DNA from: an uncultured Psychroserpens sp.
Lineage (GTDB): Bacteria > Bacteroidota > Bacteroidia > Flavobacteriales > Flavobacteriaceae
Direction of reading: 5' to 3'
Assembly: GCF_947500255.1 (NCBI RefSeq)
Contig: NZ_CANMRL010000003.1
Location: 248,001 to 312,000 of the forward strand
Length of the DNA: 64,000 nt
A model generated the notes under the pieces. It saw only the letters and a list, made by a program, of their open reading frames with translations, ran no database searches and was not told the DNA's origin. Position numbers and translations under genes: made by a program. Within the stretch, counting starts at the first letter, position 1. Each line of letters starts with the position of its first letter. Positions 16,628 to 53,359 of the stretch are shown here, piece after piece.

Positions 16628-16646
16628 TTAAATTTTAAATTTATAG

Positions 16647-18212
16647 TTATAATTCTCCTCGTCGCTCAACGAGTTCTTTCTTTATCTCTCTAGCCCTATC
16701 TTCATTTAGATTATACTTCCACATTACCCAAACCGCAAGTGCTGCAGTTAACGATGGAACTATTATATCAGCTATTCTAAGATTGTTCATAGTCTCTATA
16801 GATTGCTCAGTAACATTAGGGTCAAATCCAACAATACTTAAGATTGCGCCTCCCAAAACAAGAGCTATAGACTGACCTATTTTTACCATCAGCCAATAGA
16901 TGGCTCCAAAAGTCCCTTCTTTACGAGGCATACCATTCTCTAGTTCATCCAAATCGCAAACATCTGCCGTCATAGACATCATTAAAGTGAATAGACCTCC
17001 CATACCAAATGCAAATAGTGGAATCGGTACAAATATGAGCCATGGTACATCGCTTCCTGGATCAATACTGAACCAAGACATTCCAATACTTTCAAGAGCT
17101 GGATTTAGAGATTCGAAAATGGAGCTAACTCCTGAATTTAAACTCTTACCTAATCCAGTTTGATTAAATTGATTATTAAGTTCTTTATCAAAGCCCCACC
17201 ATTTCAAAACATAACCAACGATGGATAACACAGTTGAGATTATGAACGCCTTTTTCTTCCCCCATTTATTAGCCATTCTTGTAATAATTGGGATAACAAT
17301 AAATGCTGTAATAATAGCATTTATGGTATTGAACCAAGCAGGCCAAGTACCAGCCATCTCATAACTTCCACTATACATATAAAACACAATAATGAAGACA
17401 CCAAATGCCGCCACAAGCTGAAATCCATTAAACACTAAAAACGTTGCTCCACATAATTTCATGAAAGGTTTGTTTTTTGTGACTTGTTTAATACCCTGCC
17501 ATAAATCTTTCATATTTGATGCTAACGACTTAAATGTAATTTCCTTTCTATTCTCCATATGAGAAGAATCAATACCCTTACAAAATAATGCTGGCAGTAT
17601 CCCAAAAACAACACACATAGCACCAACAATAAGAGCCATTGTACGAACACCTTCTGTTTGCGTATTAAATGTGTCTGTATCAGGAATAATAACATATAAC
17701 CATGGCACAATCATCCAAGCAATTTGCCCCATAGTATTAGAAAAAGCCATTAACCGTGTACGCTCATTATAATCAGAAGTCATTTCATATCCAAGACCTA
17801 CTAATGGTGTTGCAAACATTGTATTACCAATAAGAAACAATAATTGAAGAATCATTACATGCCAAATAATATAAGATTGGGATGCATTATCATCGATTTG
17901 CCACATTAAAAAGAAAAGTATTCCGCTTATAATTGCTCCAATAAAAATATAAGGACGTCTTCGTCCCCATCTCGACTTTGTATTATCAGAGATGAAACCC
18001 ATTATTGGATCGGTGATTGAGTCAAATATTCTTGGTAAACCACCTAAAAGTCCAGCCCATAAAGGATCAACACCCCAAGCCGTCAATAAGAAAAACTGAA
18101 TAAAAACACCAAGAGTACCTGGTAATATATTCAATATAAAATGACCTGCTCCAAAGGCTGCTTTTTGTCCAACTGGGACTTTATCTTTTGCGGCTGTTTT
18201 AATTTTTGACAT
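16647..18212 (-). CDS. MFS sugar:cation symporter (GPH-type)
   Basis: 521 residues and about 12 transmembrane helices. The early motif DSITDPIMGFISDNTKSRWGRRRPYIFIGA is the GPH-family loop 2-3 signature (given here as its two halves DSITDPIMGFISD and SRWGRRRPYI). An extra loop of ~60 residues around 350-410 is predicted outside the core helices. In this operon it most likely carries beta-glucose oligosaccharides from periplasm to cytoplasm, between the periplasmic GH17/GH30 and the cytoplasmic GH17/GH149. The substrate is inference. Confidence 0.85.
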   Translation of the reverse strand: MSKIKTAAKDKVPVGQKAAFGAGHFILNILPGTLGVFIQFFLLTAWGVDPLWAGLLGGLPRIFDSITDPIMGFISDNTKSRWGRRRPYIFIGAIISGILFFLMWQIDDNASQSYIIWHVMILQLLFLIGNTMFATPLVGLGYEMTSDYNERTRLMAFSNTMGQIAWMIVPWLYVIIPDTDTFNTQTEGVRTMALIVGAMCVVFGILPALFCKGIDSSHMENRKEITFKSLASNMKDLWQGIKQVTKNKPFMKLCGATFLVFNGFQLVAAFGVFIIVFYMYSGSYEMAGTWPAWFNTINAIITAFIVIPIITRMANKWGKKKAFIISTVLSIVGYVLKWWGFDKELNNQFNQTGLGKSLNSGVSSIFESLNPALESIGMSWFSIDPGSDVPWLIFVPIPLFAFGMGGLFTLMMSMTADVCDLDELENGMPRKEGTFGAIYWLMVKIGQSIALVLGGAILSIVGFDPNVTEQSIETMNNLRIADIIVPSLTAALAVWVMWKYNLNEDRAREIKKELVERRGEL

Positions 18213-18235: not shown

Positions 18236-19741
18236 TTATGACTTAGGCACTACAATTGTTTGAATTGCTTGTGCATTTATTTTAATATCTACATTGCTTT
18301 CATTTAAATTTAACGTGAAACTTTTAGCGGTTTCGCCTTCATTAAAAATGACTACAGCTATGGAATCATCAGGGTTTTTTGCTGCAGTCACCATCAAGTC
18401 TTTATCTGGGTTTTCAACATCAATCACGACAGCTCCTGGCCTTATATATTTGCTGAAATGTGCCATGGTATAATAAATAGGCGTAAAATAGACCTCGTCT
18501 GCATCTGGATCAACAATAATAGGAGCTACGCACCAGTTTTTAAACCAGTTAGGACCACCTTGTCTATCTAACACCATGTTCCAATCTACCCAACCGTCTA
18601 CCCAATTATTGAGACATCCAATGATATCTCTAGCATAGCGATTTACAGGCGCATATTTTGGGTGTAAGTATTTCTCATCTTCTGCTGCCCAATCCCAGCC
18701 CCAATCGGTAGCTTCTTTTGACCAATACCAGATATCATCTTTCCATTTTGGAACTTCAGAATCTACACAGCCTTCAGTTTCAATTAAATACTTATTAGGT
18801 GCTTTGTTATGGGCATATTGCAAAGCTTCAGGGAAATAGTCATAAGTGCTTTCATACCAATGAATAGCTGTTCCATCATAATACTTCGATGACTCCTCTG
18901 TAGCATACATGACATCTACCCATTCTTTAAGGCCTGCTCTATTTTGGTCATAACCTAAAATGATTTTATCGCCTTTACCATCGACTTCCAATTTCGGTCC
19001 CAAGTGATTCTGTACAAAATCGGTCATTTCTTCTGGAGTAAAGTGCATACTTTCCCAGTTGTTTCCATTTCCATGTGGTTCATTTTCAACAGTAAAACCC
19101 CAAATTGGAATGCCTTCAGCTTCATAAGCATCTACATATTTTGAAAAGAACAAAGCCCAAGTATCGTAGTATTTAGGTAATAACTTTCCTCCTACCCATT
19201 CTTTATTATCTTTCATCCAAGGTGGTGCCGTCCATGGTGACGCGAAAATATCGAAGCCATCTTCTGAAATTGCCATAGCCTCTTTTATCATTGGAATAAG
19301 ATCATCCATATCATCTTTGATTGTAAAATGTTCTAGCATCATATCGTCTTCAACAGGTGCATACGAATACTGACTCAATGAAAAGTCACAAGAGTTCATA
19401 TGTGTTCGTGTTAATGAATAATTTGCACCTTCTCTACTGAAATAGGCCTTCAAGATTTTGTCTCTATTGGCTTTGCTTAATTTGTTTAACAAATAGGCAG
19501 AGGACTCAGTAAATGCGCCTCCAAAGCCAGTAATAGTTTGAAATTTTTTATCTGGATTAATTTTTAAAACAGGCAAAGAACCTGTTGTTGAAACGTCATT
19601 GATTCTTGTAAGCTGATTTCCGCTTGCAGATGTTTCATAAATTTCAACTTCAAGCAAGTCTTGTCCTATTTCTTTTTTTTCATTACTACCTATCATAACT
19701 AGTACTAAAAGGGAATAAAAAATGTAGCTTATGGTTTTCAT
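18236..19741 (-). CDS. GH30 beta-glucosidase (probable laminarin side-branch hydrolase)
   Basis: Clan GH-A family 30: NPDKKFQTITGFGGAFTESSAYLL is the family start, the acid/base E221 lies in FTVENEPHG and the nucleophile region is YLIETEGC (E321/E323). GH30 enzymes in marine laminarin loci remove beta-1,6-linked glucose branches, which I infer here. The N-terminus (MKTISYIFYSLLVLVMIGSNEKKE) looks like a lipoprotein signal that has lost its cysteine: the lipobox is complete up to IGS and continues with N. It may therefore be cleaved by signal peptidase I, stay membrane-anchored or be periplasmic. Co-transcribed with GH17 upstream (24 bases). Confidence 0.9.
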   Translation of the reverse strand: MKTISYIFYSLLVLVMIGSNEKKEIGQDLLEVEIYETSASGNQLTRINDVSTTGSLPVLKINPDKKFQTITGFGGAFTESSAYLLNKLSKANRDKILKAYFSREGANYSLTRTHMNSCDFSLSQYSYAPVEDDMMLEHFTIKDDMDDLIPMIKEAMAISEDGFDIFASPWTAPPWMKDNKEWVGGKLLPKYYDTWALFFSKYVDAYEAEGIPIWGFTVENEPHGNGNNWESMHFTPEEMTDFVQNHLGPKLEVDGKGDKIILGYDQNRAGLKEWVDVMYATEESSKYYDGTAIHWYESTYDYFPEALQYAHNKAPNKYLIETEGCVDSEVPKWKDDIWYWSKEATDWGWDWAAEDEKYLHPKYAPVNRYARDIIGCLNNWVDGWVDWNMVLDRQGGPNWFKNWCVAPIIVDPDADEVYFTPIYYTMAHFSKYIRPGAVVIDVENPDKDLMVTAAKNPDDSIAVVIFNEGETAKSFTLNLNESNVDIKINAQAIQTIVVPKS

Positions 19742-19765: not shown

Positions 19766-21052
19766 CTATCGATTTGCCATTATTTCGTCTAGAGCTGGAG
19801 GTACTAAAACATCTTCCATCAAGGCTTTCTTATTACCGTTATATGTTTTGGTAATTGGGTTACCATTTCTTGTTAATCCATCAAAAACACCACCATCTAC
19901 TAAATCCCATATTGGGTATTTTGCCTTTCCATCAATCGTAAACAATCCGAAATGATTTTCTGAACCATTTGGATGATGTGCATCTTTCCATTGCTCATTA
20001 AAAGCTTCAAAATAGAAGCACGAAATTCCAGCAGTATTGGTCCATTCTCTCATGAGTTCGTAGTACAAACCTTGTTTATATTCATCTGTAGCTCTAGAGC
20101 CATTAGGTCCGTAGAACCCTTTAGATACTGTCGCCCAACCTGTTTCACCAATATGAATTGGTTTATTAATACCGATGCTTTTCATGTAATTAGTAACACT
20201 ATCGTACTGACGTTTAGAAAATTGGATGGCACGTTCTATTGCAGCATGAATCTTATCAATATCAGCAAGACTATCTTCGGCTTCAGGGACTCCCCAAAAT
20301 TCAGGATTGTAATGTGAATTATGATATGGGTATGTATGCATCGAGATATAATCTACGGCTTTGATTAATTTTTCTAGATCTTCAACATGATATTGGTCTT
20401 CGCCACCTCCCCATGATGCAAAATCATCAGAACTCGTTATCCATAAATCTTTCGGAAGTTTGTCTTGCGTCTTTAATTCTTGTAAATGTGTTACCCATTT
20501 TAATATCACGTTAGGTTGCACATAATAGCTTTCTGCCCATTTGACCATAGCTTCATTTCCTACAGCCAAAACCTTCACAATGTCTGGGTATTTATTAGCC
20601 AAAACTACAGCCCTTTCTATTTCGGCTGCATTATTAGGACTTTCAACATTGTGATCTACAGGTTGATCAGTCCATGCATTTAGACAATCGATCCATGCAC
20701 CTAACATCACATACATCTCGAAATTTGAGTCTTCTTTTTTAAGCTCTGTAATCGCTTTTAAAATATTTGAAGCATGCGGAAGCTGTACATTATACGTTCG
20801 CAATATTTTGATACCCATTGCAGACAATAGTTTCATATCATCTTTGAGTTCTTTAATTGTTGGCTGACTATCTCTAGATTTTTCGCGGTAACCTCCATAA
20901 GATATTGCTAAATAATTAGGATTTCCTAATATCTCTTTAGCTGTCATTTGTTTGCCTTTTTGCATGTCTTTGTTAGATTTTGGGTTTTGATTACAAGATG
21001 ACATGATCATTGAAATAATTATTGCACATAGGATATTTACTTTCAATTTCAT
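19766..21052 (-). CDS. GH17 beta-1,3-glucanase lipoprotein
   Basis: Lipoprotein signal with Cys20 (MIMSSC). The catalytic GH17 barrel has acid/base E167 in LAVGNEAMVKW and nucleophile E303 in IHIGETGWATV, and carries family motifs YISMHTYPYHN and CFYFEAFNEQWK. Residues after the cysteine (NQNPKS) lack the acidic export signal seen in the neighbouring GH16 and binding lipoproteins, suggesting an inward, periplasmic position. Endo-acting GH17 enzymes of laminarin loci cut debranched beta-1,3-glucan; this fits beside the GH30 gene. Confidence 0.9.
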   Translation of the reverse strand: MKLKVNILCAIIISMIMSSCNQNPKSNKDMQKGKQMTAKEILGNPNYLAISYGGYREKSRDSQPTIKELKDDMKLLSAMGIKILRTYNVQLPHASNILKAITELKKEDSNFEMYVMLGAWIDCLNAWTDQPVDHNVESPNNAAEIERAVVLANKYPDIVKVLAVGNEAMVKWAESYYVQPNVILKWVTHLQELKTQDKLPKDLWITSSDDFASWGGGEDQYHVEDLEKLIKAVDYISMHTYPYHNSHYNPEFWGVPEAEDSLADIDKIHAAIERAIQFSKRQYDSVTNYMKSIGINKPIHIGETGWATVSKGFYGPNGSRATDEYKQGLYYELMREWTNTAGISCFYFEAFNEQWKDAHHPNGSENHFGLFTIDGKAKYPIWDLVDGGVFDGLTRNGNPITKTYNGNKKALMEDVLVPPALDEIMANR

Positions 21053-21066
21053 GTGTTTGTTATTTT

Positions 21067-24000
21067 TTACTTTAAAATTGATTTATTAATACTTATGGTA
21101 ATTCGCTCTACTAAACCTGATCTAGCAAAAATCTCGTTACTAGTGTTTCTATCAAGAACCAAGCTGTTAAGCGTTTTTTGTGAACTTTTAGTAGTTTCTA
21201 CTTCAATCCAATTCTCATATCCCATTTTATAAATTATAGGCACTTGGCAATATGTAAAAGCTAAAGAACCAACTTCAAGGTCAATTGATTTCCAGTTGTT
21301 GTTTACATCAACATAGTTAAGGGGTTTAGATTCTGTTAAGAATTCCTCTTCTCTCAATAAACAAGGGTTGAAAAGCAATTGTCCTTGTTTAACAAATATT
21401 CCTAGTTCTCCAAAACGACTCAAAATATCCTCTTTAACTTGTCCTGTCATTCCTGGTTGTTGAGCTCCCTTTCCTCCTGGTGTATGCGAATATGGATCGG
21501 TTGGGAAAGCACCATATAATGCTGGTGACTTATGTACACCAATCCCTTCATTAATTTCATAAAAATGCTCTAGTAATTGTCCGATTATAGCTTCGCTTTC
21601 GCCATCATTTACTGCTTTTATACAACATTCTTGTACAGCCAGTAATAATTTTGAAACCATATGCCAATAGATCGATCCTAACCCTTCATAACCATAGAAT
21701 GTTCCAGATCTTCCTGTAAACGCTTTATGATTAAATACCTCTTCGAAAGCTTGCAATACTTTTGGAGTGTCTGATTCTAAAAGTGTTTCATATTTTGTTC
21801 CTAAAAGATTTTCTAACGCTAAAGAAACGTCATTAGCATTCTTAAAGTTTCCATTAAAATGATAGTCGCCATTAACATCTTTTTCGATGATTTGAACATT
21901 TCCATCCTTTAATAATTCTTGGAGTAATTTTGATGAAAAAACTGCATCTTCAGGAATCGTATTTCTGTCTAAAAACCCTTTAAGCTCTTTATTAGGATAC
22001 AACATATAACTGTATTGATCCTCTCTAAAAAGCTTGCTTTGTTTTAATGCATTTAAGACATTTAGTGTTTCTGTGGCTTTTAAATAACCTGAACTCAAAA
22101 CAGCTACTTGACCTTCTAACATCTCACTTAAATAAGAAATAGAAATAGAGTTGTCTGTATTTACAGTCATGAGGTTATAAGCATGATATAAATTATCAGA
22201 ACGCTTATTAGCTTTAATTGAATGCTCTAAATAAGACTTACTAATTGTTACAAAGTCTTTCAATTTATTAACCGAAAGCGTTGTTTTTCTTCCTGAAAAG
22301 GCATGGTTATAGATTTGAGTTCTATAATTACTACCTGCATTTCCTAAACCATCTAATATTATTTTTTTATCTGTATCATTAATCGCTACTGATAATAAGT
22401 CTTTATTATTTTCGAAGGTATTCAATACCGAATCGAAGAATTCAGATAGCTCAACAGAAACTTCTACTTGATCAATACTAGTCGTTGTAAGTAACTCTTC
22501 AAAGAAATTGAAGAATCTACGCAGATAATAAAGCGTCACCATAGATACTCCATTACCTACCAAAGCATTATTTGCATCATTCCATTCGGGACGTTGTGTA
22601 TTCATCCAAATACCTCCTTCGGGAATAAAGTTTGATAGTTTTGCCAAAGATGTTACTAATATTTTCTCAATAAAATTTGCTTTAACTATAAATCTGTTTT
22701 CATCGCGAAGCAAAGCACCATCTGCACCTAATTGTTCACGCTCTTCATTAATTTTATGATCTAATGCATCATCAAAAACAATTGTGTCTTTTGGATTTTT
22801 TAGTAAGTCTGCATATGGCTTAATTTTATAAGGTACATTGGCATAGACAAATAGATCTTTTGTGAAGAAACTTTCTAATTTATCTGGGTTATGATTATTA
22901 ATAAATTCTAAAAACTTAAGTAAGTAGATAATTTGATGATCTCCCCAATATCCAATGTAAGACCACGGGTCGTCTGGTTCAATTATTTCCCAATCAAAAC
23001 CACCTTTTGTTACCCTATATGGATTATACCCATCAAATGTTGTTGCGTTTAAAAATTTATGAATCATACTTTCAATGAACTCTGGATATGAGTGTGCTAG
23101 CGCTTCCCAGTTTTGGAAGATATCTCGCCAATTGCCTTCATAATCTAAAATTTTAGATCCATCAACTTCACTTCTTGTATTAATTGAAAATTTATTCCAA
23201 GGACGACTTGGGTCGCCATGTCTACGACTAAATTTTAACGGCATATACTCTAAACAAAGACGTCTAAAGTTTTTATCATCACTATTGTATGCTATTTCTT
23301 GTATTTCTGATAGAGAAAACACTTCTGGAAGGGTATCTAATATTCCTTCAGATGTTCGTGCAACTTTTTTATTTGCATTGTGAAGATAGTTGCTAAAATC
23401 CCATTTTTCAATTTGATAACCATTATCAAAGATTCCTCCACGCATAATGTTAAATAGCGTATTAGAAAAGTGACGCGTATCTCTTAAACTATCTGCAGAA
23501 ACTTGAATGGCATCTGATGCCGAATTCAACTCCACTAATCGTTTAGTACCATAATCAATGTTCTCATTAACTTTATCAGCTAATGCTTCATCCTCGCGTA
23601 TTTTCTTTAACAGCAACGCAATATCTGAGTGATTTTGATTAACATTTGCGACTAGCATCCATTCTTTAGAAGAATCTGCTAGTAATTCTATTTCAGTTGA
23701 AACAAAATAAGCACCCTTTTCAGCTTTAACATCCACTTCTTGTGTTAAAGATTGACCAGACCTAAAAGCATCTAGTTGTAATGATGATAGCAAATACTTA
23801 GGATTATTTAAACCTAATGACCAAACAACGTTTGCTTTTAATGCTTCGCTTGCTTCAGCTTTATCAACAAGAATAGCACTAAGTGCATAAATTCCAAGTC
23901 CAGTTGACTCTTCTAGCTCATTTCTCTTATAGGCATCTACTAAATTACTGGATTGATTCTGAATATCACTGCCTATACTTGCTGGCAAAATATTTTGAAT

Positions 24001-24534
24001 ACCATCTAATAGTGTTATACTTACAGATTCTGTAGCAGTATTAATTAATTTAGATTTTTTTACAAAACCATACTTATTACTAGAACTCCATTGGTATCTA
24101 AATATTAATTCTAAGTCATGATTAATTTCTTCAAAAATTATTTTGTTCCCATATCTATTCTTATACAAGTTTTGAGTTGTAGAATATCTACCTAAAGATC
24201 TAATAGCTAGTGGTTCCCACATGAACTCTTGATTATTCTTATGAACCTTGAAGATTGATTTATTTCCGGTTATATCAGCAGATTCGGTAATCTTATCGTC
24301 TGTATAGTAAGGAAATAAAGCATATTCAGAATTTTTACGTCCTGCAGTTAGCCCTCCATTACTCGATATAAACATCCAGTGATTAGAATCACTGACGATA
24401 CTCATAAAAAAGGGACGAATTTCATCACAATTAGAAATCTTGTAATAAGATTCATTATCAATAACTAAATCTATTAATCTGACTTTTTTTTCTTTAGAAA
24501 TATTATTTTCCATTAAAGTTGCTTCGGTTATCAT
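21067..24534 (-). CDS. GH149-type beta-1,3-oligoglucan phosphorylase
   Basis: 1155 residues with no signal peptide, so cytoplasmic. The layout is that of the GH94/GH149 group: an N-terminal beta-sandwich region with FMSIVSDSNHWMFISSNGGLTAGR, then a large alpha/alpha barrel. The segment IWMNTQRPEWNDANNAL holds the expected general-acid aspartate, D653. Length and locus fit GH149, whose members phosphorolyse beta-1,3-gluco-oligosaccharides to alpha-glucose-1-phosphate and conserve energy. The start may be the ATG at 24534 or the one at 24513 (MENNISK); nothing decides. It lies 22 bases after the PKD lipoprotein gene. Confidence 0.82.
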   Translation of the reverse strand: MITEATLMENNISKEKKVRLIDLVIDNESYYKISNCDEIRPFFMSIVSDSNHWMFISSNGGLTAGRKNSEYALFPYYTDDKITESADITGNKSIFKVHKNNQEFMWEPLAIRSLGRYSTTQNLYKNRYGNKIIFEEINHDLELIFRYQWSSSNKYGFVKKSKLINTATESVSITLLDGIQNILPASIGSDIQNQSSNLVDAYKRNELEESTGLGIYALSAILVDKAEASEALKANVVWSLGLNNPKYLLSSLQLDAFRSGQSLTQEVDVKAEKGAYFVSTEIELLADSSKEWMLVANVNQNHSDIALLLKKIREDEALADKVNENIDYGTKRLVELNSASDAIQVSADSLRDTRHFSNTLFNIMRGGIFDNGYQIEKWDFSNYLHNANKKVARTSEGILDTLPEVFSLSEIQEIAYNSDDKNFRRLCLEYMPLKFSRRHGDPSRPWNKFSINTRSEVDGSKILDYEGNWRDIFQNWEALAHSYPEFIESMIHKFLNATTFDGYNPYRVTKGGFDWEIIEPDDPWSYIGYWGDHQIIYLLKFLEFINNHNPDKLESFFTKDLFVYANVPYKIKPYADLLKNPKDTIVFDDALDHKINEEREQLGADGALLRDENRFIVKANFIEKILVTSLAKLSNFIPEGGIWMNTQRPEWNDANNALVGNGVSMVTLYYLRRFFNFFEELLTTTSIDQVEVSVELSEFFDSVLNTFENNKDLLSVAINDTDKKIILDGLGNAGSNYRTQIYNHAFSGRKTTLSVNKLKDFVTISKSYLEHSIKANKRSDNLYHAYNLMTVNTDNSISISYLSEMLEGQVAVLSSGYLKATETLNVLNALKQSKLFREDQYSYMLYPNKELKGFLDRNTIPEDAVFSSKLLQELLKDGNVQIIEKDVNGDYHFNGNFKNANDVSLALENLLGTKYETLLESDTPKVLQAFEEVFNHKAFTGRSGTFYGYEGLGSIYWHMVSKLLLAVQECCIKAVNDGESEAIIGQLLEHFYEINEGIGVHKSPALYGAFPTDPYSHTPGGKGAQQPGMTGQVKEDILSRFGELGIFVKQGQLLFNPCLLREEEFLTESKPLNYVDVNNNWKSIDLEVGSLAFTYCQVPIIYKMGYENWIEVETTKSSQKTLNSLVLDRNTSNEIFARSGLVERITISINKSILK

Positions 24535-24556: not shown

Positions 24557-25396
24557 TTATTGTTGAACTATCTCATCAAAGTAGTAGATGTCACCATCAC
24601 AATCTGCGTTTCTTTCAAAATATATAATCATACTTTGAAAAGTTCCTGTAGGGACATCTGTGAAATCAAAAGTAAGTTCTTGCCATTCTCCGGTTTGAGT
24701 GATATTAGCAACTCTATCTTGAGAAGGTTCAGTATTTGGAAATGGCATAAACTCTAAACGAAGGGTGACTTCAGTAATTTGAGTTTCTGCTAAAACTTTC
24801 ATTGTAAACGTTTTATTAGATGTTGTAGAAAAATCTATTGAAGTTGCTAAGCCGACACCAAGTCCTGCAAAGGTTTGACATCCTATAGTTTTTTCATATC
24901 GTTGTACTTTACAACTCGAGTTTACAGCATCTATAACAGGGTTGTCAACTATAAAACCTGCAGTATTTCCAAAAGCGTCAAATGTTGCATTTCCATTTGC
25001 ATCTAAGAACGTCCAGTTTATATCTCCATTTGCGGGATCAAGATTCTCAGCAGATTCATCGGTACAAACAGGAATATCTATAACAAATGTTTCCTGAAAC
25101 GTATCTGCATTACCATTAATATCAAATGCAGTTAAGGTAACAGTATATGTACCATTTTCATAAGTTACAGTTGGCTCAGCTAATGTAGATGATGTTCCAT
25201 TGCCAAAATCCCAAGAATAATTTACAGCATCGTTTGATACGTTAATAAACGAAATAGTTCTTACATCAACATTGCTTAGAAATCTTGCATCTAATTCTAT
25301 GATTTCTCCAGCACCTCCATCGCCTTCACAACTTGTTAATCCAAAGGAAAAAATTGTTACGATTATGATACTTATTTTATATTTTAAAAATCTCAT
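24557..25396 (-). CDS. PKD-domain surface lipoprotein with CBM-like module
   Basis: Lipobox FGLTSC (Cys23) followed by acidic residues. Residues ~30-108 form a PKD domain (INVSNDAVNYSWDFGNGTSS and YENGTYTVTLTAFD). Residues ~115-279 form a beta-sandwich module ending in DIYYFDEIVQQ, the same closing pattern as the T9SS binding protein (YIDDIVQ). No catalytic residues are seen. It lies directly downstream of GH16 and probably is a surface glycan-binding protein that holds the glucan for the GH16 enzyme. Confidence 0.8.
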   Translation of the reverse strand: MRFLKYKISIIIVTIFSFGLTSCEGDGGAGEIIELDARFLSNVDVRTISFINVSNDAVNYSWDFGNGTSSTLAEPTVTYENGTYTVTLTAFDINGNADTFQETFVIDIPVCTDESAENLDPANGDINWTFLDANGNATFDAFGNTAGFIVDNPVIDAVNSSCKVQRYEKTIGCQTFAGLGVGLATSIDFSTTSNKTFTMKVLAETQITEVTLRLEFMPFPNTEPSQDRVANITQTGEWQELTFDFTDVPTGTFQSMIIYFERNADCDGDIYYFDEIVQQ

Positions 25397-25411: not shown

Positions 25412-26287
25412 TTAATTGTACACTCTCACATAATCCACATACATGCGTTGTGGAAAAACTGTTTCTGCATTAGGAGCACCTGGTAAAGATCCACCCACAG
25501 CCATGTTGATAATAATATAAAACGGACGATTAAACACCCATTCACCAGTATTTTGAGGAGCTCCATCTTCTACTCCAATTGCTTCATCTGCAGCATCTTG
25601 AGGAGTTAAAGTTTGATATAAATCTCCATCGACGTAATAATTGATATAGTTTGGTCCCCATTCTATTCCGAAAACGTGAAATCCAGTATCAAAACGATCA
25701 TTTTCAATCTCGTATTCTTTAGTTAATGCATCTCCAGCATTATACCCTGGGCCATGAGCACTACCAAAGACTACAGTAGGGCGATTACCTACATATTCCA
25801 TGACATCAATTTCTCCGCATTGTGGCCATGGGTTTTGATCACAGTCGTTACCTAAAAGCCAAAATGCTGGCCAGATCCCTTTTCCATATGGCAAACGAAT
25901 TCGAGCTTCAAAGCGACCATATTGCTGTTCAAATAAGCCTTGAGTGGTTAATCTAGCAGAAGTATAATTTGAGGATTCGAAAGCCTCTTCTCTTGCAGTT
26001 AATACTAATAATCCATTTTCGACAGTTACATTTTCTGGTCTATCAGTATAATATTGCAATTCATTATTACCCCAACCTGCTGGTAATCCTTGAGCAGTTC
26101 CATCTCCAATATCATAAGTCCACATTGACGAATCTGGAGCACCATCTATATCAAACTCATCTTGCATCACTAGGTTATTAAGTTGAGTTACTTCTTGAGT
26201 TTCGTCAGTATTACAAGCACTTATCAATAGGGCTACCATAAATAATAGCGCTAATTTTATCTTGTTAAATGATTTTATATATTTCAT
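25412..26287 (-). CDS. GH16 endo-beta-1,3-glucanase (laminarinase) lipoprotein
   Basis: Family 16 jelly roll with the catalytic signature GEIDVMEYVG: E159 nucleophile, D161, E164 acid/base. FEARIRLPYGKGIWPAFWLLG and FHVFGIEWGPNYINYYVDG are laminarinase-type segments. I start at the ATG at 26287 (MKYIKSF) because it gives a proper lipoprotein signal with Cys25 (LLISAC). The nine codons upstream do not. After Cys come NTDE, an acid-rich surface-export signal, so it probably sits on the outer face and makes oligosaccharides for SusC/D import. Confidence 0.93.
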   Translation of the reverse strand: MKYIKSFNKIKLALLFMVALLISACNTDETQEVTQLNNLVMQDEFDIDGAPDSSMWTYDIGDGTAQGLPAGWGNNELQYYTDRPENVTVENGLLVLTAREEAFESSNYTSARLTTQGLFEQQYGRFEARIRLPYGKGIWPAFWLLGNDCDQNPWPQCGEIDVMEYVGNRPTVVFGSAHGPGYNAGDALTKEYEIENDRFDTGFHVFGIEWGPNYINYYVDGDLYQTLTPQDAADEAIGVEDGAPQNTGEWVFNRPFYIIINMAVGGSLPGAPNAETVFPQRMYVDYVRVYN

Positions 26288-26313
26288 ATTTTTTTGTTTA
26301 TAAATTATAGCCA

Positions 26314-27777
26314 TTATTCATTGTAAAAATATACGTTATCCACCCATATATCTGAGATAGTTGCATCTGAAACGAAGAACAGTTGTCCTAAGTTAGCAAG
26401 GTCTGAAAACCCTGAAAAGTTAGAAATTGGAATGTCTAAACTTAACCAACCATTTTCATCAGCATTTCCTAAAGCAGTAGAATTCAATATAAAGTCCCCA
26501 CTTGTTGATGAACCAGTACCTGTTCCACTTTCAAGAGATAATCTTATAAAATCACCACCATCGATAGCTTCTCTAATATTAATATCTACATGCAAATGAG
26601 ACATTGCACTTATATCAACTAAAGACACCGTTTCATAAGTTCCAATACTAACAAAGTTTAGCATTGTATAGTTTATAATATTATCAAGTCCACCTCCTGG
26701 TAAAGGCACTTGTAAATCAACATCATTAGGATCTGCTCCAGCACCACCTTGTGTAGTTGCAAACTGAAAGAAACCATTATAGTGTCTTACAGGAACATTT
26801 GTATACGCATCACTAAAGAGCGACACAACGTTTGCAGGGTCTCTTGTTGGAATAGGAGCGCTAGGGAATGGACCATTAGATGTGAGTTCTAAAGAACCTT
26901 CTGCTGAATTAGCACCAACACTAGCTGTAATAGTAGTAGTACCTACTCCAATAACTGTTATTTCACCCGATTCTGAAACTGTTGCTACAGATTCATTAGA
27001 AGATGAAAAGTCAAAGTAACTAGGAGCTGCATTAACTGTTTGATTAATGCCTGTAGGTAAATTAACGGTATATGAAGTTCCTGAAATCTGAATAGTAGAA
27101 CCCACAAAAGCTTCTTGTACAAGAGAAGCACCACTAAAGATTCGAGGTACTTCTTGACCTAGAGTTCCTAGGTTTTCAAATCGTAGTTCGTCTATCCAAA
27201 ATGTAAATCCAAAACCATTTGTGCTTTGTGTTCCAGCAGAAAAGAGAAACATTCCCTTTTCTTGAACAAGTTTAGAAGGGTCTGGGATTGGGATTATATA
27301 TTTTTTCCAATCTGTCGATAATTGAACATTAGGAAAACTTACTGCGTATTCATTCTCTACAAAATCGGTTCCAAAACCTGCCTCAACAATACCTGTTGTA
27401 GAGCCTTTAGCCCAGAACGTTAAGGCATCATACTGTGTTAAATTTCTACCAGCTCCAGCATCTTCAAAAATTCCGCCTATAAATCCTCCGTCTGGATCAT
27501 TAGGTGCAGGTACATCTATTCTAATTGATATACTTCCTTCAAAAGCTTCACCATTATCAGTACCAAAACCATTGACATTTGCCCCGTCAGCAGGGTCAAA
27601 CGAATTGAAAAACTCTTCTGTAAGTCCGATTGGTGTATCTGTAAAAATATCACCTATAGTGGGAAATGTAGCTGGAATTGCGTCATCAGAAATATCTCTC
27701 TCACATCCATAAGTAAGGCTTAGAATCAACCCTAATAAGAATGCATTGTTTAATTTGATTAATTTCATTGTTTTCAT
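26314..27777 (-). CDS. surface lipoprotein with two carbohydrate-binding modules and an Ig-like domain
   Basis: Start taken at the ATG at 27777 (MKTMKLIKLNN; another ATG follows at 27768). This gives a lipobox with Cys25 (LTYGC) followed by ERDISDD, an acidic export signal. Residues ~50-205 form a beta-sandwich ending FWIDELRFENLG. A Big_2-like Ig domain (ESVATVSESGEITVIGVGTTTITA) spans ~215-300. A second sandwich starts VVSLFSDAYTNVPV and ends IWVDNVYFYNE. That last module resembles the one in the 695-residue protein of the SusCD operon (VISMFSNTYALDVNV to FIDNVYFYKS). Likely glucan-binding; no catalytic motif seen. Confidence 0.78.
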   Translation of the reverse strand: MKTMKLIKLNNAFLLGLILSLTYGCERDISDDAIPATFPTIGDIFTDTPIGLTEEFFNSFDPADGANVNGFGTDNGEAFEGSISIRIDVPAPNDPDGGFIGGIFEDAGAGRNLTQYDALTFWAKGSTTGIVEAGFGTDFVENEYAVSFPNVQLSTDWKKYIIPIPDPSKLVQEKGMFLFSAGTQSTNGFGFTFWIDELRFENLGTLGQEVPRIFSGASLVQEAFVGSTIQISGTSYTVNLPTGINQTVNAAPSYFDFSSSNESVATVSESGEITVIGVGTTTITASVGANSAEGSLELTSNGPFPSAPIPTRDPANVVSLFSDAYTNVPVRHYNGFFQFATTQGGAGADPNDVDLQVPLPGGGLDNIINYTMLNFVSIGTYETVSLVDISAMSHLHVDINIREAIDGGDFIRLSLESGTGTGSSTSGDFILNSTALGNADENGWLSLDIPISNFSGFSDLANLGQLFFVSDATISDIWVDNVYFYNE

Positions 27778-27787
27778 TGTTTCGTTT

Positions 27788-30700
27788 TTATTTTCCAATA
27801 TTGATATGTACATAGGTTCTAATCTCCCACTCTGAGCCATCAGAAAATCCAGCTGGACTTAATATTGGTTGTGGTGGAAAGTCATCAGTAAATGTGTTCG
27901 TAGGAGAATACCTAGGTGAGAATTGATCTAGAGCTCTCCAGGTTCCTCTTATTCCAATTCGTGTACTTGGTAGAATAAACCAATCAGGTTTACCCAATGA
28001 GGTTGACACGTCTAGCATTAATTGCATTGGAAATGTTAAGTTAAAATCCCTATGGTAATCAAAAGGCCCCCAATCATTAACTTTTACATGTGTTCGTACA
28101 CTCATTTTCTTGTAAATCATTCTGATATCTGCACCAAAACGATCAATTGTTCTATCACTATCACCATTAGCTTGTCCATTTCCGTAGTAGAAATTACCAA
28201 TCAACCCTAAGTCTGGGCTAATTTTAGATACCATTCTAGAATGTAATTCCCATAAGTCGTCAGCAGGTACTGATGTTGGGAATGCAAAAAATGTACGATT
28301 AGCTTGGAAACCAATATGAGCATCCATTGTTGTAGGAAGGTGACGGAATACAAATCCTAAATTCATTGCAAATTTAGCATCTTCAGCTCTATCATTATCC
28401 CACGAATACATCCATGTTCCAGGTGTTGGATCGTAGGTAAGTAATAATTCAGCTCCTGTGGTTTCTCTATTACCATTTCTTACTGCGAAAGGATCGCTAA
28501 TAACATTTCTTAATCTCCCAGGTGCATCACCACCGTTGGGCATAGGGTCAACTAACGGTTTTTGATACATAAAGTTTGGTGCAATTTGAAAATCGCCCAT
28601 TGTATATGTGAAACCACTTAAAATACTAGACACATTTCCACTACCAGAATCTCTCAATTTCCACCCTGTGAAGGTTTGCGTTTGATCGGCTCCGCCATTA
28701 GCAACTAAGCCCATGATAGCTCCTTGGGCATACCAATTAAACTTACCACCTCCATAAGTGATTTTTGCTTTAGCACCCCAATTGTCTTTGCTTTGTACTT
28801 CATCTAATACAACCTCTCCGTTGTCGATATCTTGATATGTACTGCCATTTAATGGACTTCCACCCCAGATTGCCCCAAGTGTCACTCCTACTTTGCCAAA
28901 ATCTCTTTCTACAACAAGTGTTGCGCGTTCTGTTGGCCATGCTGGAATAATACCACTTCGTACTTGATTGGCATCCAATACACGTTGACCATTTTCATCA
29001 AATTCTAAATCGGTTTCAATATCTCTATGGTATATACCAGTAATTTCATAATCACCAACTTTACGTTGATATTTTAATAAAGCGGTTGGATTAGCTCCCC
29101 ACCATAATTGAGGTCCGAATGCTGCTTTTAAACCATTAAGAGATCCTTTACCGTTGAATTCCATCCCAAGTATCTCACCATTATAAATATCTAAGTTTGG
29201 ACCGTAATTAGCTTCAGGATACAATCCGAAGAAATCGCCTTCATATCCCCAATGGTAATGCCCAGTTCTGTAAAAACCTTTGATATCAGCATATTTTGTA
29301 TTCCATTCGAATTCGGCATTATAAACTCTTAGTCTGTTAAAGTCATTGATTTCTACATCTAAATCATTACCTCCTTCAACACCAACAACAGTAATTGGTC
29401 TACCTACATTCTCATAAAATATTTCATCAATTGGGTTTTCAGCTACATTACCCAAAATATTAAAGTTCACATTAGCTCTCATATTTGGAGCTGGATTACC
29501 TTCAATTCCGACGAAATACGACTGCATATGATCAAAACCTAATTGATTAGGAAATACATTAGCATTAGGATCTTCAGTTTCAGGAGTAGTTATCAAACTT
29601 CCACCAGTACTAAATGTTGTAAAACGTGCACCGAGGTTACTGATTCTTATTTTCTGACTTCCGCCGCCACCTAAAGCAGCTTTATCTCCTCTTGCTCTGA
29701 GTACAGCGTCCATTAATTCAATATTATCAAAGTAATTTGACATGAACTCTGGAGTCATTTCAGGATTGTAAGGATCTAATTTATGTACTTCTTTAAGTGC
29801 ATAATAAGCAGCTCTAGGATATAATGTGTAAAGTCCTCTAGCATCTGTTGGTCCTTTTGCACAAATACCAAACCACTCCTCATTCATATTGAGATCACCT
29901 TCTTTTGCTTGATCTCTACTATATCCACCATTTGGCCAAACGGCAACATTATCATGAACATCTAAGTTTTCAGTTTGTTTATATTTCCACCAACCATCAC
30001 TAAATTGGAATGTAAAACCTCCAATAGAATTATTAGCTTTACCCATTCCAGAGGCGTTTTCATATATATCTTTCCAATTTCCAACATTATAATAGGCTTG
30101 AGAATATTGATCTTCTTGATTATCTCTTGCATTAAATGCATCGCCACCAAATTCTGCAAAGAGGATTGGTAGGTTTAGTTTATCCTTAACTTCTTGAAAA
30201 GCATTTCCAAACGAAACACCTCTATACATATTAGTACCATATATATCTATGTCTGTACATTCATCTTTTACTAGATCTATATAAAGTAAATCTCCATTAC
30301 AAATAGCAACCGGATGAGATTGATCTATAGCTTTAACTTCTAGAGAGGCATCGTTGAAGGCTTTATATAAAGCTCGTGCAGCAGCAATTTTATTAGGATC
30401 TTCGGCACCATCAATGGGAATGGCTTCGGTTTCTGCACCAGTCCAAGACAAATGATAGTTATTTTCATTACCTATCATATACAATAATAATCCTGGTGTA
30501 TTCTTATAAGTATTTGCCATATCACGTGCTTCCTTCATCAAGATTTCTCTAGTGGCTTGATCTGCATAATTGGTTTGTGGAGTCCAGGCTCCATCAATTG
30601 TTAGACCATATGCACCAAACGTAATATTAAGCATGGTGTAGATCCCGTAGTTTTCATATATATAAGTAATCCACTTAGGAGGAAGCCCATATGTTCTTAT

Positions 30701-30970
30701 GGCATTAACACCCATGTTTTTAAGTAATGGCATTTCGCCATCTAACGCAGCTCTAATAATATCATCAGATTCTGCCCAAATACCAGCATCTGTAATTGTT
30801 GTCCCAATAGGTACATAATCCCAATTGACACCATTAACCATGAAATCTTTTCCATCCACTTTTAATTTCATTCCGTCTATACTTTTATCAACAACAACGT
30901 TGTTAGATTGAGCTAAAACTGAAAATGTTACTAGGAAAAGAAAGAGTACAAGAAAATTGTTCTTCATCAT
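27788..30970 (-). CDS. clan GH-A (GH2-like TIM-barrel) glycosidase fused to an outer-membrane beta-barrel
   Basis: 1060 residues. Signal peptide 1-20 (SVLAQ). Residues ~27-430 form a TIM barrel of the GH2/clan A type: KLKVDGKDFMVNGVNWDYVP start, acid/base candidate E169 in YMIGNENNYH, nucleophile candidate E273 in PILFAEFGGDAF, and FQFSDGWWK. From about residue 450 to the end the chain changes to repeated amphipathic strands with Gly, Tyr and Trp, separated by polar loops (VTLGAIWGG, KFNWYAQGAIMG, FQIAPNFMYQKP, AHIGFQANRTFFAF, WEIRTYVHINIGK), typical of an outer-membrane barrel. The reading frame is continuous. It is first in the glucan operon. Substrate is inferred to be beta-glucan; the exact GH family is not certain. 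Confidence 0.8.
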   Translation of the reverse strand: MMKNNFLVLFLFLVTFSVLAQSNNVVVDKSIDGMKLKVDGKDFMVNGVNWDYVPIGTTITDAGIWAESDDIIRAALDGEMPLLKNMGVNAIRTYGLPPKWITYIYENYGIYTMLNITFGAYGLTIDGAWTPQTNYADQATREILMKEARDMANTYKNTPGLLLYMIGNENNYHLSWTGAETEAIPIDGAEDPNKIAAARALYKAFNDASLEVKAIDQSHPVAICNGDLLYIDLVKDECTDIDIYGTNMYRGVSFGNAFQEVKDKLNLPILFAEFGGDAFNARDNQEDQYSQAYYNVGNWKDIYENASGMGKANNSIGGFTFQFSDGWWKYKQTENLDVHDNVAVWPNGGYSRDQAKEGDLNMNEEWFGICAKGPTDARGLYTLYPRAAYYALKEVHKLDPYNPEMTPEFMSNYFDNIELMDAVLRARGDKAALGGGGSQKIRISNLGARFTTFSTGGSLITTPETEDPNANVFPNQLGFDHMQSYFVGIEGNPAPNMRANVNFNILGNVAENPIDEIFYENVGRPITVVGVEGGNDLDVEINDFNRLRVYNAEFEWNTKYADIKGFYRTGHYHWGYEGDFFGLYPEANYGPNLDIYNGEILGMEFNGKGSLNGLKAAFGPQLWWGANPTALLKYQRKVGDYEITGIYHRDIETDLEFDENGQRVLDANQVRSGIIPAWPTERATLVVERDFGKVGVTLGAIWGGSPLNGSTYQDIDNGEVVLDEVQSKDNWGAKAKITYGGGKFNWYAQGAIMGLVANGGADQTQTFTGWKLRDSGSGNVSSILSGFTYTMGDFQIAPNFMYQKPLVDPMPNGGDAPGRLRNVISDPFAVRNGNRETTGAELLLTYDPTPGTWMYSWDNDRAEDAKFAMNLGFVFRHLPTTMDAHIGFQANRTFFAFPTSVPADDLWELHSRMVSKISPDLGLIGNFYYGNGQANGDSDRTIDRFGADIRMIYKKMSVRTHVKVNDWGPFDYHRDFNLTFPMQLMLDVSTSLGKPDWFILPSTRIGIRGTWRALDQFSPRYSPTNTFTDDFPPQPILSPAGFSDGSEWEIRTYVHINIGK

Positions 30971-31297: not shown

Positions 31298-34105
31298 CTA
31301 AATTTCTAAAATATAATTTGTTAAGCTAGATTCGTGTGGTAATTCCATTTTTTTTCGAAGTCTATAACGTTTCACTTCTACACTTCGTGATGAAATATTT
31401 AGCAAAGGAGCGATTTCTTTTGAAGACAGATTTAACCGTAAATATGCACAAAGTTTAAGATCATTAGGTGTTAATGACGGATGTTTTGCCTTTACTTTTT
31501 TCAAGAAATCTTTATCAGCATTATTAAATGCTTCTTCAAAAAATTTCCAATCGTCTGTATTGTTTAAGTTTTTATCAATAATCTTAATCACTGGATTTAA
31601 ACCTTCTGTTTCATTGACACTTTTCAGCTCTTCTTTGATATTATTCAAAAACTCGTTCTTTTTAATTAAGCTCATAGTCGATATAGCCAACTCACGATTT
31701 TTATTATCTATATCTTGTTTTAATTGCTCATTTCTTAACGACATTAATTGCTGCTCATTCTCTAATTCTTTAAGCTCTAATTCTCTCTCAGCTTCTATAA
31801 TTAGCTTCTCTTTCTGCTTCTTATAATTTCTTTTATAGACATTATGCATAATAATTGAGAACGCCATCACTGACAGTACATAAAGAAAAACCATAAGATT
31901 AGATAAGTACCACGGTTTATCTATCGTGAATGAGTACTCGGCCACATTATCAGTCATTTGATTACCTACTCTACCTCGTACATAAAATGTATAATCCCCA
32001 AAAGGCAAATTTTTAAATAATTCTGAAGGAGAACTAGACCATGAACTCCATTTATTGTAGTTTCCATCAAGTTTATATTGATATTCAGACTCTAGATATT
32101 TATCAAATTCGGCAATACTATATGTAAAGGCGAAATTATTATTCTTATTATGAAACTCTTTTTTTACACTAGGTTCTATCATTTTGCTATCAGAATCCAA
32201 TGCGTAATTAGATATAGAGTTGATTTTTATACGGTAAGATTGGTTTCTCATCTTAGATAAGTCTACAATAATGTATCCTGAGGATGTTCCAATAAGATAT
32301 TCTTGATTATCAATAGGAATAATATTTTCATAGCCTGTTAAACTCTCCCTTAAATCACTAGGTAATGGTATTCTATTAATTTGTGGTGTATCACTAAGGA
32401 GTCCAGGCGATATATAATTGACATTTCTTTTTGAAAAACTCCAAAGTTTACCAGGAGTATTCACCAGTTTACCTGATACATATGTTTCTGCATGATAAAC
32501 CTTACTTAGGATGGTGTCTTTTTGAAATGAATTAGATGAAACATCATAAGAATAAATCCCTTGACTATAGGCATACAATACATTTGAGTTATATTTAATC
32601 AAACTTGAGTGTAGCCCTTTTTTAACAGAACTTTCCTTTTTCACCTTCAATACTTTAGTGTAATCATCATTAAGGTCTAATTTAAAAACCCCTTTGTACT
32701 CATGACTTACAAATACTTGACTGCTATCGAGTAGTTCAAAAAATTTAGATGAGATATCAAATCCGTCAATCTTATTTCTAAACTGCCATTCATTATTAAC
32801 TTTTTGTAAAACGCTTAAACCAGCATAACTCCCTTTCAATAATAAATTTTCATTATTGGGTACTTGCTTTATTCTCCAAGTTCCTTCAATATCTGATATT
32901 TGTTGTATCCCATTTTCGCTGATTACGAAGGTTCCAAGATCATGACCACAAAAAAGCGTGTTGTCATAAACTTCTAGACACCAGACCTGACCTTTGGTAC
33001 CATCTACAAGTTTAAATTCTTCTAAAGAATTTAGAGGTTTGACAAAAAGTCCTTGATTTGTTCCTAAATACAATTTATCATTATAGACTTTTGCGGCATG
33101 TACAGCTCCCAACTGGCCTTTTTTATCATTATATACTCTAAATGGTGATGAGCTATTAATACAATTAATTCCATTATCTAAACCCAACCATATATTATCA
33201 TTTTTATCTTCAAAAACAGAAAGTACCGTATTGTTTGACAGTCCATTATTTTGATTTAATGCATATGATATATTTCCTTCTTTATTAAGATTAATAATTC
33301 CGTTGGAAATCGTGCCAATTGCAAAACTTCCATCTTCTAGCCTAACACTACTGTATATTGTAAGATTTGAAATAATATCATTGGCTGGGATATTCCATTT
33401 AGACAATTGACCATTATCAAATACAAAAAAACCTTTTTGATTGGTTTGTATGATAAATTTGCCATCGATATTAAAAATATTTATGATTCTATTCGATTTT
33501 AGAATATCATTATCTGAAAACAATGTTTCCTTACCATTTTCAATTTTAAATATTCCTTGATTTAATTTTTGGTAATAAATAGTATTGTTAACCTCAACCA
33601 TCTTAGTTAAAGTTGTCTCGGAGCTAATAATTTTGAATTCTTTCGAATTTGTGTCATAGCTATAAAGTCTATCTAAAGATTGAAATACTATAAACTTATC
33701 TAAAGCTATAATATTCCAAACTTGTTCATCTTCAATCATTGGTGATTGAAGATCTTTAGATAATGATGTATAGGTTAATTGATTAAAATTATTACGCTCC
33801 CAATAACCAAACTCCATGTAGCAGCCTGTATATATTCTATCTCCAACAGCTTTAACCGAACGTAATATGGTTTGGTTAGGTGTTTCATATAACTTCCATT
33901 CGGCACCATTAAACTCTAATAAACCAATATTATTAGCAACATAGATGTAATCGTTATCAGATTGAGATATAGACCAATTTTGAGTTTCTGCCTTGTATAT
34001 ATCAGACGGATAGATTTGTATAGGTAGGATTTCCTGAGCACTAACGAGACCATGTAATACGAAAAAAAGAAAAATTATTACGCTTCGAGATATTGACATT
34101 TGCAC
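31298..34105 (-). CDS. membrane-spanning ligand-sensing regulator: beta-propeller, Y_Y_Y domain, LuxR-type HTH
   Basis: 935 residues. Signal peptide 1-23. Two-component-regulator-type propeller repeats span to ~640 (motifs such as VFEDKNDNIWLGLDNGIN). A Y_Y_Y-type Ig domain follows at ~650-725 (YQYKLDGNYNKWSSW; GDYTFYVRGR), then one transmembrane helix at ~734-756, a coiled coil to ~830, and a C-terminal LuxR/GerE-like helix-turn-helix (LTPNDLKLCAYLRLNLSSKEIAPLLN). There is no kinase or receiver domain, so a periplasmic sugar signal would pass directly to the DNA-binding end. It lies just upstream of the glucan operon and is the likely activator. Confidence 0.85.
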   Translation of the reverse strand: MQMSISRSVIIFLFFVLHGLVSAQEILPIQIYPSDIYKAETQNWSISQSDNDYIYVANNIGLLEFNGAEWKLYETPNQTILRSVKAVGDRIYTGCYMEFGYWERNNFNQLTYTSLSKDLQSPMIEDEQVWNIIALDKFIVFQSLDRLYSYDTNSKEFKIISSETTLTKMVEVNNTIYYQKLNQGIFKIENGKETLFSDNDILKSNRIINIFNIDGKFIIQTNQKGFFVFDNGQLSKWNIPANDIISNLTIYSSVRLEDGSFAIGTISNGIINLNKEGNISYALNQNNGLSNNTVLSVFEDKNDNIWLGLDNGINCINSSSPFRVYNDKKGQLGAVHAAKVYNDKLYLGTNQGLFVKPLNSLEEFKLVDGTKGQVWCLEVYDNTLFCGHDLGTFVISENGIQQISDIEGTWRIKQVPNNENLLLKGSYAGLSVLQKVNNEWQFRNKIDGFDISSKFFELLDSSQVFVSHEYKGVFKLDLNDDYTKVLKVKKESSVKKGLHSSLIKYNSNVLYAYSQGIYSYDVSSNSFQKDTILSKVYHAETYVSGKLVNTPGKLWSFSKRNVNYISPGLLSDTPQINRIPLPSDLRESLTGYENIIPIDNQEYLIGTSSGYIIVDLSKMRNQSYRIKINSISNYALDSDSKMIEPSVKKEFHNKNNNFAFTYSIAEFDKYLESEYQYKLDGNYNKWSSWSSSPSELFKNLPFGDYTFYVRGRVGNQMTDNVAEYSFTIDKPWYLSNLMVFLYVLSVMAFSIIMHNVYKRNYKKQKEKLIIEAERELELKELENEQQLMSLRNEQLKQDIDNKNRELAISTMSLIKKNEFLNNIKEELKSVNETEGLNPVIKIIDKNLNNTDDWKFFEEAFNNADKDFLKKVKAKHPSLTPNDLKLCAYLRLNLSSKEIAPLLNISSRSVEVKRYRLRKKMELPHESSLTNYILEI

Positions 34106-35659: not shown

Positions 35660-35696
35660 AAGATTGGTTTATTTTTTTACAGCTATCACAATAGCA

Positions 35697-36680: not shown

Positions 36681-36700
36681 ATTTTTATTTTTAAAAATGT

Positions 36701-41239: not shown

Positions 41240-41258
41240 ATAACTAGTATTGATTATT

Positions 41259-53353: not shown

Positions 53354-53359
53354 CTTTAA

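Follow-up and report, generated by a model that had tools for sequence, protein, structure and literature searches.

A GH-A glycosidase continued by a probable outer-membrane β-barrel in a laminarin utilisation cluster of Psychroserpens

A stretch of 64,000 nucleotides from an uncultured Psychroserpens sp. (the window, whose positions serve as coordinates throughout) carries on its minus strand a single unbroken reading frame of 1060 amino acids (27788..30970), in which a glycosidase of glycoside hydrolase (GH) clan A is followed by a C-terminal part of about 620 residues that very probably forms an outer-membrane β-barrel. The gene belongs to a laminarin utilisation cluster, of the kind that lets marine bacteria feed on laminarin from algae. 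The explanation we arrived at, to which we give an even chance of being right as a whole, is that the protein is a periplasm-facing outer-membrane glucan enzyme seated on a barrel of about 24 strands and working in this laminarin (β-1,3/1,6-glucan) cluster. An earlier note on this DNA had read the enzyme and the C-terminal part as one uninterrupted chain, which the unbroken frame confirms.

The fusion is conserved and widespread

Among 8000 candidates scored, of which the best 120 proteins were listed individually, at least 5038 proteins matched at E ≤ 0.001. The design, which had been called unusual in the earlier note, is thus odd among enzymes but belongs to a widespread family. The C-terminal part was found in 35 of 395 sampled genomes of the phylum, with 33 of the 36 matching places lying in frames of 1028-1084 amino acids; the frames around the remaining three measure 300, 99 and 55. 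In a sample of the class (395 genomes, partly the same ones) all 17 matches lay in frames of 1041-1093 amino acids. As the matches in both samples are almost all in full-length frames, no clear free-standing C-terminal part occurs there. Several of the best 120 proteins are shorter (641-894 amino acids), and the three that were checked have no signal peptide and look like broken or partial gene calls. Some entries hold the C-terminal part without a complete GH part (P0138, 641 amino acids), a point against our explanation, although they are probably broken calls. Relatives extend to Balneola, Gracilimonas and Cyclonatronum in the phylum Balneolota. We conclude that the fusion is real, old and common, and not a product of chance or of an assembly join.

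The N-terminal domain is predicted to be a retaining glycosidase of clan GH-A

Residues 76-285 match the Pfam model Glyco_hydro_2_C (PF02836) with 29.8 bits at a cut-off of 21. The two glutamates proposed as catalytic in the earlier note, E169 and E273, occur without exception in the 388 aligned relatives (from 393 distinct sequences gathered, those with 15% or more gaps being removed). In a profile alignment N168-E169 and E273 fall on N136-E137 and E220 of BuGH158, whose residue numbering was obtained by counting an offset of 22 residues by hand. E137 and E220 are given as acid/base and nucleophile of BuGH158 in the relevant passages of PMC7157763, so that the earlier choice of glutamates was right. 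Retaining enzymes of clan GH-A have their acid/base and nucleophile Glu behind strands 4 and 7 and an Asn in front of the acid/base. Having the catalytic pair and the preceding Asn, the domain is predicted to be a retaining glycosidase of clan GH-A.

The best PDB match of the profile was BuGH158 itself, an endo-β-1,3-glucanase (PDB 6PAL), followed by GH2 enzymes. The two proteins have the GH-A core and both catalytic glutamates in common, but BuGH158 carries an immunoglobulin (Ig)-like C-terminal domain where the Psychroserpens protein has the inferred barrel of about 620 residues, and the E-value of the profile match is only 3.1e-6, which makes the protein no more than a candidate for GH158. 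The same source describes BuGH158, in the parts concerned, as acting on β-1,3-glucan and as encoded in a β-1,3-glucan cluster (PMC7157763). With GH2 the protein shares its match to the TIM-barrel model of that family. In GH2 enzymes, sugar-binding and Ig-like domains precede the TIM barrel. No N-terminal sugar-binding or Ig-like domain of this kind was found by Pfam, PF02836 being the only model above its cut-off, and the catalytic domain begins directly behind the signal peptide; membership in GH2 was therefore dropped. The substrate is probably β-1,3-glucan. A result that sits less well with a glucan-cleaving enzyme is that 17 of 47 members also match the GH72 glucanosyltransferases in Pfam (best E-value 2.8e-5), which means that the reaction may be a transfer.

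The C-terminal part resembles a membrane barrel of about 24 strands

Covariation was analysed by a mean-field method with the 388 sequences. The first passes were dominated by gapped loop columns, and later ones left out 90 of 625 columns (those at most three residues from a column with more than 5% gaps) as well as columns conserved above 98%. The strongest antiparallel runs then were 748-783, 646-684, 962-984, 839-876 and 800-840, all of which exceed the maximum of 60 column permutations; a single parallel run, 753-782, rose above the same null, and it lies on the contact of the best antiparallel run, 748-783. A reading with 24 strands has 23 pairs of consecutive strands, and by manual count 17 of these appear among the 40 best antiparallel runs. 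For the remaining pairs (S4-S5, S7-S8, S14-S15, S20-S21, S22-S23 and S23-S24) the local maxima range from 3.4 to 5.5, to be compared with a 99th percentile of single places of 3.5, a comparison that flatters a maximum taken over an 11 by 11 neighbourhood. The GH part, used as control, exceeded its own null only within residues 29-45, with one antiparallel and two parallel runs. When the alignment was split into halves by 85% clusters, all three splits gave the same outcome: the hairpins ranking top in one half outscored random places of the same distance in the other (p = 9e-6, 2e-7 and 2e-8). These results favour an ordered meander of about 24 antiparallel strands, as far as can be judged from sequence. 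Both features of an outer-membrane barrel, antiparallel neighbours and alternately long and short connections, were seen by covariation only, with strand limits taken partly from the same data. We consider it very probable that the strands of the meander close to form a membrane barrel, in agreement with the earlier note on the nature of the C-terminal part but not on its size, which had been put at 14-18 strands.

The composition of the C-terminal part points in the same direction. Hydrophobic alternation at 180 degrees, calculated with a hydropathy scale that was in part altered by hand, gave z = 4.2 for the C-terminal part, 2.2 for the SusC barrel in the window and -0.5 for the GH part. The value for the lipoprotein encoded next door was 3.0, so that the alternation test alone is no separator of barrels from sandwiches; simple amphipathicity counts likewise fail to set barrels apart from every sandwich protein. 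Mean values over families (up to 16 members each) at the two-residue period were 3.75 for the C-terminal part, 2.96 for SusC barrels and 2.49 for Porin_10, with 4.35 for a single Porin_O_P protein; the controls gave 2.10 (Big_2 lipoprotein), 1.15 (PKD, nine members), 0.75 (GH16) and -1.64 (GH part). Cysteine is absent from the C-terminal part in 114 of 122 relatives.

Several results weigh against this reading or lend it no support. The closure pair S1-S24 is weak, its local maximum of 2.2 lying below the 95th percentile of 2.3, and we attribute the small signal to the last strand, which hardly varies. Only 7 of 20, 6 of 17 and 4 of 20 split-half hairpins were above the 95th percentile. In the first covariation pass antiparallel runs barely exceeded parallel ones (3.6 vs 3.2 for the top 20), runs spanning at most 60 residues numbered 32 among the 40 best parallel and 26 among the 40 best antiparallel ones, and some of the 40 best antiparallel runs lie outside the meander (e.g. 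805-878, 856-954, 465-512 and 723-1020). The final residue is usually K (93 of 122 relatives); an aromatic last residue is typical of outer-membrane barrels. Comparison of the C-terminal profile with single sequences of two porin families and of SusC by hhalign gave probabilities below 1%, and the porins and SusC were not separated from soluble controls. Residues 430-1060 had no Pfam match above cut-off, residues 436-1060 no PDB sequence match of the profile (47 sequences) up to E = 10, and no family in these two libraries was matched in single-sequence or profile searches. A scan of the organism's own genome with the C-terminal profile up to E = 10 returned only the fusion gene itself; that genome has one Porin_O_P relative, which shows no hhalign link to the C-terminal part, and no Alginate_exp relative. 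A soluble all-β structure, either sandwiches or a propeller, would account for the missing family match, for the weak pairing of first and last strand and for the β-alternation that the soluble-type lipoprotein next door displays as well. Against it speak the pairing of each strand with the next along some 24 strands, the regular change between long and short connections, the scarcity of cysteine and an alternation above that of the SusC and Porin_10 barrel families; we regard a soluble structure as very improbable.

The enzyme most likely faces the periplasm

The connections between the strands fall into 12 loops on the side far from the enzyme, with a mean length of 21.9 residues, and 11 turns on the enzyme side, with a mean of 4.4. 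Outer-membrane barrels have long loops pointing outward and short periplasmic turns, and an even number of strands places both ends in the periplasm. With this distribution of loops and turns, a periplasmic location of the enzyme is the likeliest one, although the limits of the strands were set manually and in part with the covariation data, so that the p-value for loop length is not taken at face value. Covariation between the domains does not add to this: the enzyme showed no preference for either side of the barrel (p = 0.36). In this test, negative overall, the highest coupling was 404-851, involving the Trp-containing loop.

Independent support comes from a free form of the enzyme, defined as proteins of 342-348 amino acids with E ≤ 1e-140 to the L017 protein. 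This free copy of locus L017 has the motifs GNE-NY and DGWWK in common with the fused domain. Of 57 related genomes, 16 encode the fused and nine the free form, none both and 32 neither; the chance of finding no overlap is 0.039 for the 57 genomes and 0.003 for the 23 genomes of the genus. In all five clusters read (L160-L164) the free gene has GH17a on one side and GH30 on the other. In the stretches read, GH149 is present, the fusion gene and its Big_2 partner are absent, and SusC or SusD occurs in all three stretches that reach far enough. The free form is a lipoprotein, and in none of its 14 rows (nine genes) is the lipobox Cys followed by two or more acidic residues. The same signal was counted in 3 of 60 rows for GH17a, 15 of 54 for GH30, 69 of 73 for GH16, 63 of 73 for the partner lipoprotein and 21 of 22 for SusD, a few GH17a and GH30 genes being counted twice and genes with no detected lipobox being excluded. 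Acidic stretches after this Cys are a surface export signal in this phylum, as stated in the pertinent section of PMC5080379, and a free form that lacks it argues for a periplasmic enzyme. Taking loops and free form together, we judge that the fused enzyme probably faces the periplasm.

Conservation inside the barrel was assessed by counting invariant positions, which make up 42 of 156 lumen-facing and 13 of 152 lipid-facing residues, the faces having been assigned by hydrophobicity, which favours lower entropy in the lumen. The far-side loops have 61 invariant positions of 263 and the GH domain 92 of 380. Few stretches of the C-terminal part are as conserved as loops L3, L4, L7 and L11 (0.31, 0.03, 0.59 and 0.19 bits). 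Conserved outer loops are unusual, and their strong conservation suggests that these four may fold in and bind sugar.

The gene lies in a laminarin utilisation cluster

The genes are arranged in the order regulator, fusion, Big_2 lipoprotein, GH16, PKD, GH149, GH17, GH30, MFS (major facilitator superfamily) and GH17 (Table 1). The joint presence of GH16, GH149, GH17, GH30, MFS and SusCD identifies the locus as a laminarin utilisation cluster, the substrate being deduced from gene content. SusC and SusD in the window are 86% and 90% identical to the pair in L162, a laminarin cluster with the free enzyme. Neighbourhoods were counted in the 80 relatives that ranked best among 578 candidates. In all 77 loci that extend far enough, the gene after the fusion is that of the Big_2 lipoprotein, and the second homologue downstream is GH16 in 71 of 73 loci, whereas SusC and SusD lie at most 10 kb upstream in 24 of the 65 relatives with enough upstream sequence. 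For the first place in the operon, which the earlier note had assigned to the fusion gene, the gap of 327 bp to the upstream regulator is favourable here; the SusC and SusD genes that precede it in those 24 relatives are not.

Table 1. Features of the fusion protein and of its gene neighbourhood in the window
Feature	Residues	Position	Strand	Basis or remark
Signal peptide	1-20	30911..30970	-	ends VLA before Q21, without lipobox cysteine; read by eye
GH-A catalytic domain	25-404	29759..30898	-	Pfam PF02836; profile match to GH158 6pal
E169, predicted acid/base	169	30464..30466	-	motif GNENNY; invariant 388/388; aligned to BuGH158 E137
E273, predicted nucleophile	273	30152..30154	-	motif EFG; invariant 388/388; aligned to BuGH158 E220
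Linker, poorly conserved	405-439	29654..29758	-	mean entropy 1.72 bits vs 0.90-1.18 in five other classes
Inferred transmembrane β-barrel, about 24 strands	440-1060	27791..29653	-	alternation, covariation, loop topology
Loop L3, far side from enzyme, strongly conserved	570-597	29180..29263	-	entropy 0.31 bits
Loop L4, WWGANP, nearly invariant	623-628	29087..29104	-	entropy 0.03 bits
Trp-containing 17-residue loop, enzyme side, conserved	847-863	28382..28432	-	entropy 0.61 bits
Loop L11, GPFDYHR, strongly conserved	968-974	28049..28069	-	entropy 0.19 bits
Y_Y_Y/LuxR-type regulator, upstream		31298..34105	-	homologue at most 10 kb upstream in 61/65 loci with room
Partner lipoprotein, Big_2 domain		26314..27777	-	10 bp after fusion gene; start likely M22 of the listed open reading frame (inferred)
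GH16 lipoprotein, predicted surface endo-β-glucanase		25412..26314	-	Pfam 2.3e-25
PKD-domain lipoprotein		24557..25396	-	
GH149 β-1,3-glucan phosphorylase		21067..24534	-	NCBIfam equivalog, 1805.9 bits, cut-off 1150
GH17 (GH17a)		19766..21052	-	Pfam 8.8e-8
GH30		18236..19741	-	Pfam 1.8e-78
MFS_2 sugar transporter		16647..18212	-	Pfam 1.2e-64
GH17 (GH17b), separate from MFS gene		15719..16627	-	Pfam 4.1e-13
SusC (53360-56386) and SusD (51890-53353)		51890..56386	-	21 kb from fusion gene

The pairing of barrel and lipoprotein is reminiscent of SusC and SusD, and the Big_2 lipoprotein is likely to be a surface glucan-binding protein. Like the SusC/SusD importers, the fusion would place an outer-membrane barrel beside a surface lipoprotein encoded in the same cluster, but the plug (PF07715) and CarbopepD_reg were not found in the fusion, whereas the SusC of the window has the plug. 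The earlier note had envisaged an alternative to SusCD. This is not supported, and a plain substitute was dropped as a candidate, given the counts of SusCD near the fusion and a pair 21 kb away in the window; with SusCD nearby in the 24 relatives and present in the window, the fusion works beside SusCD, at least there.

Two further features of the region lie around these genes. Between the laminarin genes and SusC/SusD lie, besides other genes, a purine-catabolism block on the same strand (34214-41305) with adenosine deaminase-like, nucleoside hydrolase and xanthine-dehydrogenase-like genes, and at the end of the cluster (13871-15385) lies a gene for a protein with a type IX sorting tail (Por_Secre_tail).

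A possible role at the periplasmic mouth of the barrel

What the analysis shows is a conserved fusion with a catalytic pair and an antiparallel strand meander, encoded in this cluster; from there on we infer each step of the following route. The surface GH16 would cut laminarin outside the cell, the co-encoded surface lipoprotein would hold the product, and the glucan would reach the barrel. The N-terminal GH-A domain, carried in the periplasm by the C-terminal outer-membrane barrel of about 24 strands, would sit at the periplasmic mouth and cut the glucan on emergence; its breakdown would be completed by GH17 and GH30 in the periplasm, by the MFS permease and by GH149. The earlier note had suggested that the enzyme could work at a channel mouth; loop and turn lengths do place it at one of the two, most likely the periplasmic one, and the processing of glucan there is a proposal. 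That the barrel passes glucan, beyond anchoring the enzyme, has in our view about equal chances of being true or false. In a stricter version the glucan channel would work independently of TonB and have the enzyme as its catalytic plug: its own surface lipoprotein would feed a pore of about 24 strands from outside, the glycosidase would close the periplasmic mouth and cut every chain that comes through, and hydrolysis alone would make uptake one-way; we offer this tentatively and think it unlikely.

The barrel could also be no more than an anchor that keeps the enzyme on the inner side of the outer membrane, in the way the lipid does for the free form, with nothing passing through. The replacement of the fusion by a free lipoprotein relative in the same kind of cluster fits such an anchor, as does the availability of SusCD as importer in at least the 24 of 65 relatives and the window. 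A lipid, however, would be far cheaper than 620 residues, and an anchor has no need for conserved lumen positions and conserved far-side loops L3, L4, L7 and L11, which makes an anchor only a possible, rather unlikely explanation. Enzyme passengers on barrels are known from type V secretion, and with this precedent and with the surface-type signals of the neighbouring GH16 and lipoproteins in mind the GH domain might be exported in an autotransporter-like way and act on laminarin beside SusCD. The far-side long loops and enzyme-side short turns imply a periplasmic N-terminus instead, no autotransporter domain was found in the Pfam searches, and the free relative has no surface signal, so that a surface enzyme appears improbable. 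A periplasmic enzyme on an outer-membrane barrel is the reading we retain.

Relation to known systems

Type V fusions of enzyme and barrel include autotransporter esterases and the patatin-type PlpD, which have smaller barrels and passengers that are sent to the surface. They likewise have the enzyme N-terminal to the barrel; no such barrel domain was detected here, the fusion having no Pfam match to the type Va C-terminal autotransporter domain. An enzyme and a membrane protein in one chain also occur in a laminarin cluster of Formosa, as the MFS-GH17 fusion FbGH17B, but there a GH17 is C-terminal to an inner-membrane transporter, whereas here the enzyme is N-terminal to an inferred outer-membrane barrel (PMC6246565, in the parts describing the fusion). 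The MFS and GH17 genes are separate in the window (15719-18212); they are fused in Formosa, according to the same parts of PMC6246565.

In NCBI records most relatives go under the name "glycoside hydrolase family 2 TIM barrel-domain containing protein" or plain "glycosidase". The sections of a Muricauda laminarin paper dealing with the cluster place a "GH2 beta-glycosidase" upstream in it and mention no barrel (PMC13188888). The corresponding part of a Maribacter paper lists GH2 in laminarin clusters of Croceitalea and Croceivirga (PMC11345257), perhaps the same gene, and the portion of PMC6298971 concerned with GH2 names it for other substrates only. The relevant extract of a North Sea bloom paper (PMC10108472) has an unclassified "GH0" among the genes of GH149 laminarin clusters, with high expression in one genome; that it is this enzyme or its free form is no more than a guess. 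In the open-access literature, with subscription journals mostly outside the scope, we found no description of a glycosidase-barrel fusion, and its membrane half seems to have been overlooked.

A conserved protein of a widespread laminarin cluster has been read as a plain GH2 glycosidase though more than half of it very probably is a membrane barrel. Should the barrel conduct glucan, these bacteria would have, in addition to SusCD, a further entry route across the outer membrane in which one chain supplies both enzyme and channel. A natural experiment is at hand as well, since clusters of the same kind carry the fused enzyme in some related genomes and the free one in others. Another barrel fusion may exist at loci L183 and L184, where Porin_10 matches lie in frames of about 2217 amino acids, far longer than the others.

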